DNA of 64,000 nt from NCBI GenBank assembly GCA_026986575.1, contig JALSOH010000006.1, positions 434,001 through 498,000 of the forward strand, read 5' to 3'. Below, in pieces: positions 14,380 through 37,163 of this stretch. Positions within the stretch are counted from its first letter, which is position 1. Each line of letters starts with the position of its first letter. Source of the DNA: Thermoproteota archaeon. Its GTDB lineage: Archaea; Korarchaeota; Korarchaeia; Korarchaeales; Korarchaeaceae. Both the position numbers and the translations under genes were made by a program. Under the pieces are notes generated by a model. It was not told the DNA's origin, did no database searches, and saw only the letters and a list, made by a program, of their open reading frames with translations.

Positions 14380-14461
14380 GTCAACCTTAAATTGGTCCTA
14401 CAGGACGATGGCCCTATGACAGGTGACCTCCTTTGGCCCTGATTTAAAGGAGGGTAATCGC

Positions 14462-15634
14462 ATGTCCCCGAATCAGGAGTTCAGAGTGACGCCTTGGGAA
14501 GTCGAGGGGCTAGTGGACTACGACCGCCTGATAAAGGAGTTCGGCACTAAGCCCCTAACTGAGGACCTCATCGAGAAGACGAGGGAGCTCACCAAGAGCG
14601 AACTTCCGCTCTTACTAAGGAGGAGGTTCTTCTTCTCCCACAGGGACTACGACTTGGTGCTGAAGGACTACGAGAAGGGTAGGGGTTTCTTCCTCTATAC
14701 GGGAAGGGGACCCTCCGGTCCGATGCACATAGGACACATAATCCCCTTCTACATGACCAAATGGTTCCAAGAGAAGTTCGGAGTGAACCTCTACATCCAG
14801 ATAACGGACGACGAGAAGTTCGTGTTCAAGCCGGAGCTGAACTTCGAGGAAACGAAGAGGTGGGCCTACGAGAACATCCTAGACATAGCGGCAGTGGGCT
14901 TCGACCCCGACAGAACCTTCATATTTCAAGATAGTGAGTACACCGAGATATACGAGCTGGCTGTCCCCATCTCCAAGAAGATAACGTTCTCCACGGCCAA
15001 GGCCGTGTTCGGATTCACTGAGAGCAGCAAGATAGGGATGATATTCTTCCCTGCAGTTCAGGCGGCCCCGACCTTCTTCGAGAGGAGGAGGTGTCTCATA
15101 CCTGCCGCAATAGATCAGGACCCTTACTGGAGGATCCAGAGGGATGTGGCCGAAAGCTTGGGCTACTACAAGACCGCCGCCATACACGGAAAGTTCTTCC
15201 CGCCTCTCACAGGACTGTCGGGGAAGATGAGCGCCAGCATGCCTGAGACGGCGATATACCTGACAGATGATCCCGAAACGGTGAGGAAGAAGATATGGAA
15301 GTTCGCCTTAACCGGCGGACAAGCGACGGTGCAGGAGCAGAGGGAGAAAGGGGGTAATCCGGAGAAATGCGTGGTCTTCAAGTGGCTCGAGATGTTCTTC
15401 GAGCCCGATGACGAGAAGCTACTGCAGAGGTACGAGGACTGCAAGTCCGGCAAGCTGCTATGCGGGGAGTGCAAGAATTACCTCATAGAGAAGGTGCAGA
15501 GCTTCCTGAAGGAGCATCAGGAGAGGAGGAAGAGGGCCGAGCCATTGGTGAGGCAGTTCAAGTATACGGGGAAGCTGGCCAGGGAGATGTGGGAGCGATC
15601 CATACCCAAAGAGCTGAGAGGAGGAGAGGTATAA
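14462..15634 (+). CDS. trpS: Tryptophanyl-tRNA synthetase (canonical copy)
   Basis: A 390-residue class Ic synthetase that charges tRNA-Trp. HIGH motif MHIGH (88-92) follows TGRGPSGP; the active site has QITDDEKFVF and AAIDQDPYWR; the KMSKS loop is intact as GKMSASMPET (K255). The C-terminal half has cysteines in DCKSGKLLCGECKNYL, as in archaeal TrpRS. ATG 14462 is chosen over the GTG at 14423 because AGGAGGG lies about 9 bases upstream. A divergent paralogue with an altered KMSKS loop lies at 32283. Confidence 0.93.
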   Translation: MSPNQEFRVTPWEVEGLVDYDRLIKEFGTKPLTEDLIEKTRELTKSELPLLLRRRFFFSHRDYDLVLKDYEKGRGFFLYTGRGPSGPMHIGHIIPFYMTKWFQEKFGVNLYIQITDDEKFVFKPELNFEETKRWAYENILDIAAVGFDPDRTFIFQDSEYTEIYELAVPISKKITFSTAKAVFGFTESSKIGMIFFPAVQAAPTFFERRRCLIPAAIDQDPYWRIQRDVAESLGYYKTAAIHGKFFPPLTGLSGKMSASMPETAIYLTDDPETVRKKIWKFALTGGQATVQEQREKGGNPEKCVVFKWLEMFFEPDDEKLLQRYEDCKSGKLLCGECKNYLIEKVQSFLKEHQERRKRAEPLVRQFKYTGKLAREMWERSIPKELRGGEV

Positions 15635-30320: not shown

Positions 30321-30407
30321 TCGGAGGGTAAGGAGATCAAGATAATATAACTTTGGGGCCTCTCACCGCAGTGACCTTTAATGTAGAAGGCTTTGAATTC
30401 CTTAGAG

Positions 30408-31031
30408 ATGACATTGTCCGTGGACAGGAAACTCTGGGTCAGAAGGAGGGAAAGCACTCTAGCTGAGCTTAGATCGCATATGGAGGCGGGGAGGGTGGAC
30501 GAGGACGTTATCTCGCTACTTAACATCATAAACTCGCTGGATTACGCCTTCACCACCAGCAGCTGCTCTGGCAGGATTCAGGTGTATGCGGCCAACGAGC
30601 CCGGAGAAAAGTTCGGCATCAGGACCTTGGGGAAGTGGCACTCTCCTATAACTCCAAGAGAATTGACGGAGACGCTGGAAGATAAGGCTGACTCCATATG
30701 GCTTGCAGTCCTCCCCCCTATAGTTCATATAGCGGTCTGCAGCGTGAAGGCGGCCTTCCACCTGCTGGGACTGCTGAGGTCGGCTGGCTTCAAGAGGGCC
30801 GGGATAATCTCCGCATCGGAGGACGGGATCACTTTGGAGGCAATAGGCACCGAGAGGATGGAAGCTCCCCTGAGGCTGTCCGGTGTGGACATCTTCAGGG
30901 AGGATGCGATCCCCTTAATAGTTGAGAGGGCCAACTCACTACTGATCAGGTCGAAGAGGAGGATCCTCAGACTTGAGGAGGTGCTGATGGGTGAGATTGC
31001 CGGAGGCTTGGATAATCTCTGTTGGGAATGA
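30408..31031 (+). CDS. taw3: Taw3/TYW3-family tRNA wybutosine methyltransferase
   Basis: About 207 residues. The family signature is near residues 40-55 (DYAFTTSSCSGRIQVYA); SIWLAVLPPIVHIAVCSVKAA and GFKRAGIISASEDGITLEAIGTERMEAPL follow, the order of TYW3/Taw3 proteins. Known members N4-methylate the wyosine precursor at G37 of tRNA-Phe. ATG 30408 is preferred to the TTG at 30393. The 3' end overlaps the CinA-like gene by 41 bases. Confidence 0.88.
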   Translation: MTLSVDRKLWVRRRESTLAELRSHMEAGRVDEDVISLLNIINSLDYAFTTSSCSGRIQVYAANEPGEKFGIRTLGKWHSPITPRELTETLEDKADSIWLAVLPPIVHIAVCSVKAAFHLLGLLRSAGFKRAGIISASEDGITLEAIGTERMEAPLRLSGVDIFREDAIPLIVERANSLLIRSKRRILRLEEVLMGEIAGGLDNLCWE

Positions 31032-31821
31032 ACTGCTGAACGGTAGGATAGTGAATACGAACCTAAGCTGGCTTGCGAGGAAGCTCACTATAGATGGATA
31101 CCTAGTGAGGGCCGCTATAGCCGTTAGGGACGATTGTAATGACATCGTATGGGCGTTCAGGACCGCTCTTGATAGGGGAGCTGATCTAGTGATCTCCACA
31201 GGTGGGCTGGGTCCCACGTTCGATGACAAGACATCAGAGTGCCTAAGCAAGGCGCTGGGGAGGAGGCATGTGGTGAACGAGGAAGCACTTAGAATGGTGG
31301 AGGAGAAGTACAGGGAGAGAAACCTCCCCATGACAGAGCACAGGGTGAAGATGGCTATGATGCCTGAAGGGGCCGAACCAATAAAGAACGAAGTGGGAAC
31401 GGCACCGGGCATCTTGGTCAGGGAGAGGGACGCGCTGATAATAGTGCTGCCTGGCGTTCCCAAGGAGATGAAGGACATATTCGAGAGGGTTGAACCCCTG
31501 ATCAGGGAGAGGGCTCCTCCCCTCCACTACGTAAGCAAGGACTTGGTGGTGAGAGGAGTGCCAGAATCGGCTGCCGCTCCTCTCATTGAGAGGGTGATGA
31601 AGGAATTCCCTGTCTACATAAAGAGCCACCCTCATGGCCACGAGATCCGAAAGCCCGTGCTGAAGATAAACATCACCGCCTCATCTCCTGAAGGGGATGA
31701 GGCAGAGAGGATCGTGGAAGCAGCGCTGGAAAAGCTTAAGGATCTCCTGATCGAGGAGGGAGGGGAAGTAGAGGGTATAGAGGATGCCGAACAGGGTGAA
31801 GCTGATAGTTCTCGACCTTGA
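30991..31821 (+). CDS. CinA N-terminal / MoaB-like molybdopterin-binding family protein
   Basis: 276 residues, GTG start. It has the CinA/MoCF core: ISVGNELLNGRIVNTN, VISTGGLGPTFDDKT (STGGLGPT is diagnostic), and the tail YIKSHPHG. The C-terminal CinA deamidase domain is absent. In bacteria related proteins act in pyridine nucleotide or ADP-ribose metabolism; the archaeal substrate is not established. It overlaps genes on both sides, in the taw3-cinA-phosphatase-trpS2 operon. Confidence 0.85.
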   Translation: MRLPEAWIISVGNELLNGRIVNTNLSWLARKLTIDGYLVRAAIAVRDDCNDIVWAFRTALDRGADLVISTGGLGPTFDDKTSECLSKALGRRHVVNEEALRMVEEKYRERNLPMTEHRVKMAMMPEGAEPIKNEVGTAPGILVRERDALIIVLPGVPKEMKDIFERVEPLIRERAPPLHYVSKDLVVRGVPESAAAPLIERVMKEFPVYIKSHPHGHEIRKPVLKINITASSPEGDEAERIVEAALEKLKDLLIEEGGEVEGIEDAEQGEADSSRP

Positions 31822-32281
31822 TCAGGTGCTCTGGGATCATCACGACGCCACCTCCCTCGCCCTTCCCCTCAGGAGGGTCGACGAGAGGACCTTAGTCGAC
31901 GCCTCTGGCGACAAGGTCGTTCTGAGGGAAGGGGTCAGGGACTTCCTGGAGAGGGCCAAGGATAAGGGGATTTACTTATCCACCTGCAGCTGGAACGAGC
32001 CGGATAAGGCAATAGCTGTCCTGAGGACCTTTCAACTTGATCGATACTTCGACCTGCTGATGATAGAGCCCCACCCAGAGAAGGATCGAATGATGGAGAA
32101 GATACTGAATCACTTCACCCCCAAGGGAGTGAAGGAGGAAGAGACGGTATTCGTGGATGATAAGGAGGAGATGCTAGAGAGGGTCAGGAGGAGGTACCCG
32201 AAGATCAGGACCCTCAGGTTTCATCCCGATGGGGATGTGCACAGCTTCCCTGACTTGAAGAGGATAATACTGGGTGAATGA
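31784..32281 (+). CDS. MDP-1-like magnesium-dependent phosphatase (HAD superfamily)
   Basis: 165 residues. Motif I is VLDLDQVLWDHH (Asp11, Asp13), the DLD..LW form typical of magnesium-dependent phosphatase 1. Other motifs are STCSWNEPDKA (motif II region) and ETVFVDDKEEMLERV (acidic motif). It starts inside the preceding gene and its stop overlaps the nominal start region of the TrpRS paralogue, so it is part of that operon. MDP-1 enzymes act on phosphotyrosine or fructosamine phosphates in vitro. Confidence 0.78.
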   Translation: MPNRVKLIVLDLDQVLWDHHDATSLALPLRRVDERTLVDASGDKVVLREGVRDFLERAKDKGIYLSTCSWNEPDKAIAVLRTFQLDRYFDLLMIEPHPEKDRMMEKILNHFTPKGVKEEETVFVDDKEEMLERVRRRYPKIRTLRFHPDGDVHSFPDLKRIILGE

Positions 32282-32282
32282 C

Positions 32283-33407
32283 ATGATTCCCGGCTTCAGG
32301 ATAACGCCATGGGAGGTAAGTGGAGATACGGTAGATTACAACTCGCTGATCTCCCTCTTCGAGCTGGATGTCGTGACGACTGAGGTTAGGAACCTCTTCC
32401 AAGAGGTCTTCGGGGAGGAACACTACCTCATCTCTAGGGGCATATTCTACGCCCATCGCTTCCTTAGGCTCGCTCTTCTGGACCTCAAGTACAACAGAGC
32501 CAAGGTCTACATCTTCACAGGCCGTGGTGCATCGGGCCCGATGCACATAGGCCACCTCATACCAGTGAACCTCGCGAAATGGATGCAGGAGAGGCTAGGT
32601 CTCCACTTCTTCTTCCAGATATCTGACGACGAGAAGTTCGTCCTGAGGCCCGATCTGGGATTGAAACAGGTGAGGAAGTACGCCTTGGGCAACGCTTTGG
32701 ACTTCGTAGCGCTGGGATTCGATGAGAAGAGGACCCACATAATCTGGGACACGCAGGTAGCTTCATGGCTCTATCCTCTCACACTCAAGCTGGCCAAGAG
32801 GATATCTCTGTCCGAGCTAAAGAACTTGGTAAAGATAGACGACTCTTGGAACGTGGGAGTGGCCTTCTACTCCGTAGTGCAGTCGATGCCCGCCCTCATG
32901 ATGGAGATGGAATTGAACGAACCTTACCGCGCCCTTGTACCCATGGCAGTGGATCAGGACCCGCTCATGAGGGTTTCCGTACTCATAGCGGATAAGATGG
33001 GGCTCAGGAAGCCCGGAATGATCCACAGCAAGTTCCTCCTTGGACTTAAGGGAGAGCCCAAGATGGGGACCAGGTATCCCGAGTCAGCCATCTTCCTCAC
33101 CGATCCGCCCGAGGTGGTGAGGGAAAAGATAGAGGGATCCGCCTGTGGTCCTCCGAGGAGGTGCCCAGCCCTGTCCTACCTGAGGGCCTTCGATCCGGAT
33201 GATGAGTCCTTCTTCTCCATATGGGAGGTCTGCTTCAACGATCCGGAGGAGGGATGTAAGCTGGCGAAGAAGAGGGCTATAGAGGTGCTGGTCCCCTTCA
33301 TCGAGGAGCATCAGATGAGGAGGAAGGAGATGAGGGATAAAGTCGACGAGTATCTCATGAAGGAACCTCCCATCCCCTTGGATAAGTCGTTGGATCCGAG
33401 GGACTGA
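32283..33407 (+). CDS. Divergent tryptophanyl-tRNA synthetase paralogue
   Basis: 374 residues, clearly related along its whole length to the TrpRS at 14462: FRITPWEVSGDTVDY, TGRGASGPMHIGHL (HIGH at 88-91), QISDDEKFVL and MAVDQDPLMR are kept. The KMSKS loop, GKMSAS in the canonical copy, is changed to GEPKMGTRYPES: the second Ser/Lys positions are lost and the loop is longer. The N-terminal arm is shorter and the C-terminal cysteine pair differs. ATG 32283 lies 2 bases after the previous stop (GTG 32274 is the alternative). It could be a weak or specialised synthetase, one for a Trp analogue, or a non-charging regulator. Confidence 0.82.
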   Translation: MIPGFRITPWEVSGDTVDYNSLISLFELDVVTTEVRNLFQEVFGEEHYLISRGIFYAHRFLRLALLDLKYNRAKVYIFTGRGASGPMHIGHLIPVNLAKWMQERLGLHFFFQISDDEKFVLRPDLGLKQVRKYALGNALDFVALGFDEKRTHIIWDTQVASWLYPLTLKLAKRISLSELKNLVKIDDSWNVGVAFYSVVQSMPALMMEMELNEPYRALVPMAVDQDPLMRVSVLIADKMGLRKPGMIHSKFLLGLKGEPKMGTRYPESAIFLTDPPEVVREKIEGSACGPPRRCPALSYLRAFDPDDESFFSIWEVCFNDPEEGCKLAKKRAIEVLVPFIEEHQMRRKEMRDKVDEYLMKEPPIPLDKSLDPRD

Positions 33408-33454: not shown

Positions 33455-34177
33455 ATGAGCGTCGAGATCGTCGAGACCGCGCCGGAGGTAAAGAACCCCA
33501 TTCTCATCTTGGCGGTTCCCGGTGCCGGCCTCGTGAGCATAATAGCGGCCGATCACCTCATCAAGGTCGCTGACCTTAAGGAGGTCGGCAGGATAGATTC
33601 TCCCCTGTTTCCTCCTGTCATAGGCGTGAAGGACGGCGTCGCCATGCACACCGTCAAGATCTACGGGGGAAAGGGGCTGTATGTGGTCAAGGCCGAAGTA
33701 CCCCTCCCCATAGACCCCCTCCTGAAGCTTACAATATCTGTACTGGACTGGATCGCCAGGAAGAGACCCAAGCTAGCGATAGTAATGGGAGGAGTCCCCG
33801 AGGAGGATAGAATAAAGGTGGAGAAGCCTCAGGTAATGGCCGTATTCAGCAGCGAGGAGGCCAAGTCCTTGGCGGAGGGCATGGGTGGTGAGCTGATGAA
33901 GGAGGGGTACTTGAGTGGATACGCGGCCTTCTTCCTCAGGGAAGCTAGCAGGAGGGGAGTTCCGGCTGCGGCCCTCATGGTGCAGAGCTTCGCCGCCTAT
34001 CCAGATCCCGGAGCAGCTGCAGAGGTCCTCAAGGCCATAGAGCCTATCTTGGGCTTCGATGTCGATATAAGCCAGCTGGAAGCCGAATCAGAGACGATAA
34101 GGCTCAAACTGAAGGAACTGATGGCCAAGACCGTCCAGACGGCGAAGGAGGCCCCGGCTCCCATGTATATAGGTTGA
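33455..34177 (+). CDS. PAC2 family protein (proteasome assembly chaperone-like)
   Basis: 240 residues of the archaeal PAC2 family: PILILAVPGAGLVSIIAADHLI, VVKAEVPLPID, LAIVMGGVPEE, GYLSGYAAFFLREASRRGVPAAALMVQSFAAYPDPGAA (given in part as the conserved run PDPGAA) and a coiled C-terminal helix. Archaeal homologues are thought to help proteasome or ATP-dependent assembly; the exact role is not established. It heads a run with hsp20 and DNA ligase. Confidence 0.85.
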   Translation: MSVEIVETAPEVKNPILILAVPGAGLVSIIAADHLIKVADLKEVGRIDSPLFPPVIGVKDGVAMHTVKIYGGKGLYVVKAEVPLPIDPLLKLTISVLDWIARKRPKLAIVMGGVPEEDRIKVEKPQVMAVFSSEEAKSLAEGMGGELMKEGYLSGYAAFFLREASRRGVPAAALMVQSFAAYPDPGAAAEVLKAIEPILGFDVDISQLEAESETIRLKLKELMAKTVQTAKEAPAPMYIG

Positions 34178-36683: not shown

Positions 36684-36953
36684 TCAGATATCTCTGTAAG
36701 CCTTCTCCCTCCTCTCCACTAGGAGGACATCTACCCTTCTATCCTCCCAAGAGATCTCGTATATAACTCGAATATCTCCTATCCTAGCTCTGTAGGTATC
36801 AAAATATCCCTTGAGCTTCCTGATATCATAATAATCAGCTGGAATTGGGTTTTCCCTTAGGAGGAGAAAGAGCTCCAACACCCTCCTCCTGTAGAAACAA
36901 GGTAACTTTTTCAGTGATTTCTTGGCCCTCCTCGAAACCACGACCCGAAACAT
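36684..36953 (-). CDS. relE: RelE-family mRNA interferase toxin
   Basis: An 89-residue RelE/ParE-fold toxin: MFRVVVSRRAKKSLKKLP, IRKLKGYFDTYRARIGDIRVIYEI and the tail VDVLLVERREKAYRDI are the standard RelE strand-helix segments with the basic and C-terminal Tyr/Arg positions. Its ATG directly follows the antitoxin stop. It probably cuts ribosome-bound mRNA if active. Confidence 0.88.
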   Translation of the reverse strand: MFRVVVSRRAKKSLKKLPCFYRRRVLELFLLLRENPIPADYYDIRKLKGYFDTYRARIGDIRVIYEISWEDRRVDVLLVERREKAYRDI

Positions 36954-37163
36954 TTAATCCTTCATCTCCTCTAGGAGATCCTCTAGCTCCACGAATGATC
37001 CCTTAGCTATTTCCTCCCTAGCTTCCTCAATCACCCTTTTCTCCTCTTCACTCAGCTCCTCTTTTGGAAGAAGCATTGCCCTTAACCTCAGTAACTCCAA
37101 CCTAACTGAGTCTAGCTTCTTGACTAGGAGCTTTAACTGGTCTTCTGTTATCGTGACGCTCAT
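36954..37163 (-). CDS. relB: RelB-like antitoxin
   Basis: A 69-residue charged helical protein (start MSVTITEDQLKLLVKKLDSV; acidic middle KEELSEEEKRVIEEAREEI), immediately before relE on the same strand. Size, position and acidic helices fit a RelE antitoxin that wraps the toxin. No clear ribbon-helix-helix is visible. The palindrome-rich region upstream (37214-37443) may be its control region. Confidence 0.72.
   Translation of the reverse strand: MSVTITEDQLKLLVKKLDSVRLELLRLRAMLLPKEELSEEEKRVIEEAREEIAKGSFVELEDLLEEMKD

Follow-up and report, generated by a model that had tools for sequence, protein, structure and literature searches.

What a second, divergent relative of tryptophanyl-tRNA synthetase (TrpRS) does in an archaeon that also has a canonical trpS gene is the question raised by this locus. 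The window, that is, the whole stretch of 64,000 nucleotides analyzed here (positions 434,001 to 498,000 of contig JALSOH010000006.1), comes from a genome whose genus is inferred to be Korarchaeum. Coordinates are those of the window, and features are on the + strand unless indicated otherwise. The TrpRS paralogue, designated as WRSp, is a protein of 374 amino acids encoded at 32283–33407 and recognized through its open reading frame (ORF), Pfam, phmmer, and its orthologues. The ORF starts with ATG at 32283, its stop codon ends at 33407, and it includes no internal stop codon. The canonical archaeal trpS, which carries a KMSAS loop and served as the comparison copy, is at 14459–15634. A first-pass annotation from the sequence alone had described a second TrpRS with an altered loop, and this was confirmed with the ORF, Pfam, and phmmer matches in PDB. 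It had also located the canonical trpS elsewhere, correctly, but at a distance of 18 kb, which is about 16.6 kb when measured.

Family, neighborhood and distribution of WRSp

WRSp matches the Pfam family tRNA-synt_1b (PF00579) with the e-value 3.6e-19. In the phmmer search against PDB, its best matches are TrpRSs of the archaeal/eukaryotic type, with the e-value 1.3e-58 for Pyrococcus horikoshii TrpRS, while bacterial-type chains (2g36, 1yi8, and 2a4m, including TrpRS II) match at only ~1e-5 to 1e-7. The AF2 model of WRSp has a pLDDT of 87.1, and Foldseek aligned it with human TrpRS (TM 0.83) and Pyrococcus TrpRS (TM 0.82). The bit scores of WRSp are below every curated NCBIfam trpS equivalog cut-off (311/478, 253/644, and 156.4/176.75), and the canonical trpS passes, scoring 740 bits where 644 are required. 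The TrpRS from P. horikoshii (3jxe) and human cytoplasmic TrpRS share with WRSp whole-length homology, the fold, the activation-site residues, and Gln194 in human numbering. WRSp differs from archaeal/eukaryotic TrpRSs in having KMG for KMS and Phe for Tyr159, in the absence of Phe267-Gly268, in the deletion of an anticodon segment, and in its sub-cut-off scores.

Upstream of WRSp are genes for the wybutosine enzyme Taw3/TYW3 (30393–31031), a CinA-like MoCF-domain protein (30991–31821), both assigned with Pfam and syntenic in the genus, and directly 5' of WRSp, a HAD-family acid phosphatase (31784–32281). These three neighbors had been named in the first-pass annotation, and they are as described. 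The ORFs for Taw3, CinA/MoCF, HAD, and WRSp overlap or abut. A PAC2-family protein (33455–34177; Pfam, synteny) is encoded 3' of WRSp. At 36684–37163 on the − strand, a small gene pair resembles a RelE/ParE-type toxin and an antitoxin, as judged by eye only.

Of the 16 genomes from the genus, 14 contain an orthologue of WRSp, with identities from 97 to about 46%. The gene order Taw3-CinA-HAD-WRSp-PAC2-Hsp20-ligase is held in the genomes of the genus where the contig reaches, except that HAD is absent from the locus in G001; in the covered genomes, WRSp is thus positioned between the HAD or CinA gene and PAC2. Six genomes from other genera of the family contain PAC2-Hsp20-ligase, and Taw3-CinA-HAD-WRSp was not detected beside it. 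Absence from the remaining two genomes (G002 and G013) was rejected as true loss; the whole locus including the PAC2 orthologue is missing there, so assembly gaps are probable. WRSp was likewise rejected as the sole TrpRS of G007 and G008: both are without the canonical locus, most likely through assembly gaps, as the contig of G008 begins just downstream of the place of trpS, and G007 is without that region.

A profile search in a sample of 692 genomes (115 + 398 + 23 + 156) that covers four other phyla of archaea revealed no orthologue, and the same profile, as a positive control, detected WRSp in the 14 genomes of the genus. No close relative was detected in 156 genomes of the phylum of G032, where the best matches are TrpRSs with KMSAS or KMSTS. 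Of the eight named records obtained with a motif scan, seven are metagenome bins of Thermoproteota or Crenarchaeota and one is an uncultured archaeon; the motif scan revealed no viral relative. As a separate observation, the only TrpRS-like protein found in G018 and G016, from other genera of the same family, carries HLGT for HIGH and KMSKR for KMSxS; its branch among the TrpRSs is very divergent.

Phylogeny and selection

The WRSp proteins constitute one clade with the support 100/100, on a stem of ~1.0–1.6 changes per column, the lower figure being obtained under midpoint rooting, which divides the branch. A single clade of WRSp and the trpS of the same genus was rejected (AU p 0.0002), and a recent duplication of the genus's trpS is thereby rejected as the origin. 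Two other groupings were not rejected: WRSp with the genus trpS and the TrpRS of G033 (p 0.17), and WRSp with the TrpRS of g3, a genus of the same family (p 0.26). Two indels agree with the grouping of WRSp and the g3 TrpRS: in WRSp and the g3-type TrpRS alike, but not in Korarchaeum trpS, the stretch ahead of DQDP is longer and the KM loop is preceded by one residue fewer.

The canonical Korarchaeum trpS itself groups with the TrpRS of G033, a genome from another phylum, and not with that of g3. The sequence relationships suggest that the canonical trpS may have been acquired by horizontal replacement. On one reading, which depends on a long branch, WRSp would be the old, vertically inherited synthetase, freed when the present trpS arrived.

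Among close species, dN/dS is 0.027–0.036 for WRSp, which is thus under strong purifying selection, and 0.044–0.053 for canonical trpS. Between subclades, where dS is saturated, WRSp diverges faster than canonical trpS. The reading frame is intact in 13 of the 14 genomes. The exception is G009 (G009:C1:386800-388500), in which a 23-bp tandem duplication shifts the frame near residue 341 and ~28 C-terminal residues are lost; WRSp is intact in the near-identical G012. Decay, proposed earlier as an outcome that would speak against a changed function, was not seen in the lineage of the window, with dN/dS of about 0.03 and an intact frame.

Anticodon-reading segment and activation site

The alignment compared 14 WRSps with 34 other TrpRSs, eight very divergent ones among them, and human residue numbers were placed via motif anchors. 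Human TrpRS reads C34-C35-A36 via Ser378, Gly380, Arg381, and Lys431 together with the backbones of Thr427 and Gly428 (PMC12135181), and helix alpha17 (Asp382–Gln389) also contributes to anticodon reading (PMC2954223). In WRSp, a deletion of 14 residues, sited at residues ~284–288 (EGSAC; 33132–33146), removes most of helix alpha17 together with the stretch that includes Ser378, Gly380, and Arg381. The 378–381 segment is missing from all 14 WRSps and kept in all 34 other TrpRSs, including the eight very divergent ones. The AF2 model has no helix at the deleted segment and is mostly coil at about 285–294. Gly428 is substituted by K, R, E, or D in 13 of 14 WRSps, and the anticodon contacts left are Lys431, which is invariant, and, at position 427, the archaeal Cys. 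The invariance of Lys431 could mean partial use of the anticodon surface.

The residues for activation are largely retained. The first-pass annotation noted HIGH, DDEKF, and DQDP, and all are present. The MHIGH signature is at residues 87–91 (32541–32555) and DQDP at residues 224–227 (32952–32963); the second His of the former is Asn in 5 of 14 WRSps and the latter is DQHP in 5 of 14, and HIGN and DQHP co-occur in one five-member subclade. Invariant in all 14, in human numbering, are T160, G161, G163, H170, G172, Q194, D198, E199, K200, Q284, P287, D312, Q313, K349, and M350. These include the ATP residues, those for the alpha-amino group, and Gln194 for the indole.

The loop sequence of WRSp is GEPKMGTRYPES, and the altered KMSKS loop, GEPKMGTR, covers residues 257–264 (33051–33074). 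KMG is observed in 14/14 WRSps, versus KMS in 34/34 other TrpRSs (Ser351 to Gly). Conservation of this loop had been proposed as a check, and since K-M-G is invariant among the 14 orthologues, the change is neither chance nor a sequencing error. Bacterial TyrRS carries KFGKS/T at this loop, with Gly natural at the third position, so the loop alone is no argument against activation. The first-pass annotation probably put its emphasis on the wrong feature in choosing the loop: KMG does not conflict with ATP activation, the functional break is the loss of the anticodon readers, and the loop is the lesser change beside it. On the other hand, HIGN/DQHP in 5 of 14 members and the loss of Ser351 in all imply that activation could be weak or absent in part of the family.

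The pocket for the amino acid is also changed. Human TrpRS holds the indole nitrogen with Tyr159 and Gln194 (PMC2954223). WRSp has Phe78 (codon 32514–32516) at the position of Tyr159, where Phe is found in 14/14 WRSps and Tyr in 26/26 archaeal-type TrpRSs, and it keeps the second ligand of the indole NH, Gln112 (codon 32616–32618; human Gln194), in 14/14. Escherichia coli TrpRS has Phe7 at the Tyr159 position, and in bacterial TrpRS, the indole NH is bound by an Asp instead (PMC12135181). Beside the active-site cavity, V-K-I-D-D (residues 183–187; 32829–32843) replaces Phe267-Gly268-Phe of TrpRS. Positions 267 and 268 are an aromatic residue and Gly in 34/34 TrpRSs, versus V/T/I/L and Lys in 14/14 WRSps; this Lys184 is invariant. 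Phe267 sits where compounds in the active-site cavity would clash with it (PMC12135181). The otherwise near-universal Arg321-Asp322 pair is lost in all 14 WRSps. The deletion of the anticodon segment, the change of Tyr159 to Phe, and that of Phe267-Gly268 to x-Lys had been overlooked at first. The earlier proposal of a retained fold with a changed function is supported by the AF2 model and its TM scores, the purifying selection, and the family-wide changes at specificity positions.

Possible functions of WRSp

There is about an even chance that WRSp is an ancient, genus-specific enzyme of the aminoacyl-tRNA synthetase (aaRS)-like kind, derived from archaeal TrpRS, with activation predicted to be kept, CCA reading of tRNA-Trp lost, and another acceptor or mode of recognition adopted. 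The gene is intact and vertically inherited under purifying selection, with a predicted fold; the activation residues are kept, the anticodon segment is lost, and the cavity is remodelled with Lys184. WRSp most likely would still activate an amino acid with ATP, and the probable substrate is tryptophan or an amino acid that resembles it in being aromatic or bulky. It would no longer select tRNA-Trp through the CCA anticodon, and the adenylate may be passed to a different acceptor, or a tRNA may be recognized without the Trp anticodon. More specifically, and tentatively, WRSp may represent an aaRS-like family not described before and limited to Korarchaeum, which either couples an activated aromatic amino acid to an unusual acceptor, such as a protein, a small molecule, or a base of a tRNA, or charges a tRNA independently of the Trp anticodon. 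Among the neighbors (Taw3, CinA, HAD, and PAC2), none is an obvious acceptor partner.

A single candidate of tRNA-Trp(CCA) was found (G000:C6:329718-329860), apparently split by two introns, one of which is in the D-loop region. It has G1-C72 and A73, read by eye, and ARAGORN labelled it as tRNA-Met with an intron. ARAGORN, run without introns, revealed no tRNA gene in the window. With only this one CCA candidate, nothing points to a second, dedicated tRNA-Trp, though intron-rich tRNAs can be missed. Elsewhere, two near-identical sequences like the 3' half of a tRNA lie ~1 kb apart (G000:C4:161889-161955 and 162886-162942), and neither has an obvious 5' half next to it; they are possibly split-tRNA halves or integration scars.

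The single tRNA-Trp gene would fit an alternative TrpRS that charges ordinary tRNA-Trp via the acceptor stem and Lys431, for stress or against an inhibitor of the Trp site. Gln194, Pro287, the activation residues, and Lys431 are all kept, and E. coli TrpRS normally has Phe at position 159 (Phe7; PMC12135181). Yet four of the six anticodon contacts are gone, although all other TrpRSs compared keep the segment, and the scores are under every curated NCBIfam TrpRS cut-off. This explanation is unlikely.

It is quite unlikely that WRSp places an amino acid on another tRNA, or on a base of a tRNA as GluQ-RS does. Such a role in tRNA modification would fit the neighboring Taw3, as the Taw3-CinA adjacency extends throughout the genus where contigs reach, and it would fit the loss of the Trp anticodon reader with retention of the activation site. 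However, adjacency within one genus carries little weight, Taw3 exists in archaea that have no WRSp gene, and no candidate tRNA was identified.

A catalytically dead protein with a regulatory or structural role, such as a partner of canonical TrpRS or a Trp sensor, is improbable. The change from KMS to KMG in all members, HIGN and DQHP in one subclade, the lost Arg321-Asp322 pair, and the divergence between subclades, faster than that of canonical trpS, point in this direction, but nearly all residues for ATP and the amino group have stayed invariant despite a divergence of about 50%, and this is unexpected after the loss of catalysis. A decaying or recently duplicated copy of trpS, to which the frameshift in G009 might point, is very improbable and is refuted for the lineage of the window by the low dN/dS, the frames intact in 13 of 14, and a monophyletic, apparently vertical history in which WRSp is not sister to the genus trpS.

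Several second or non-canonical synthetases are comparable to WRSp. The first-pass annotation drew an analogy with antibiotic resistance, which is not supported: WRSp is of the archaeal/eukaryotic type, vertically inherited, genus-wide, and without the tRNA-reading residues, and a resistance-type second TrpRS was rejected for the sequence type and the loss of tRNA readers. Deinococcus TrpRS II and Streptomyces TrpRS1 are similar as second TrpRS copies; TrpRS II still charges tRNA with Trp and functions alongside Trp nitration, and TrpRS1 confers indolmycin resistance (PMC9437257). WRSp differs from both in its archaeal type and the absence of anticodon readers. TrpRS-A and TrpRS-A-like proteins from CPR bacteria and DPANN archaea are also non-canonical archaeal-type TrpRSs; in the archaea, such a TrpRS coexists with a canonical one, as WRSp does, and TrpRS-A-like proteins carry insertions and deletions (PMC5370408). 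These proteins are linked to ORF1 and tRNA-Trp (A73) genes (PMC5370408), whereas WRSp is flanked by known Pfam families (Taw3, CinA, HAD, and PAC2) with no tRNA found in the window; this distinction is drawn from gene context. LeuRS-I from Sulfolobaceae and haloarchaeal LeuRS2 are duplicated archaeal aaRSs that persist in a single lineage with a changed function, and LeuRS-I makes the adenylate and does not charge tRNA (PMC9437257), but they belong to a different synthetase with changes in other domains. Asparagine synthetase A, aa:CP ligases, EpmA, and GluQ-RS offer an analogy in working, with activation kept, tRNA recognition reduced or lost, and a new acceptor; unlike WRSp, they are derived from synthetases other than TrpRS. 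The table in a 2022 review of aaRS duplications includes no TrpRS-derived aaRS-like entry (PMC9437257), and a limited literature search for Korarchaeum and tryptophanyl-tRNA synthetase found no paper.

The aaRS-like proteins illustrate the reuse of translation enzymes, and WRSp, in which amino-acid activation is clearly separated from anticodon reading, is a conserved candidate for it in a deep, heat-loving lineage of archaea. If WRSp is active, Korarchaeum would have either a novel aminoacylated product or a way of charging that does not depend on the anticodon, which may offer an orthogonal pair.
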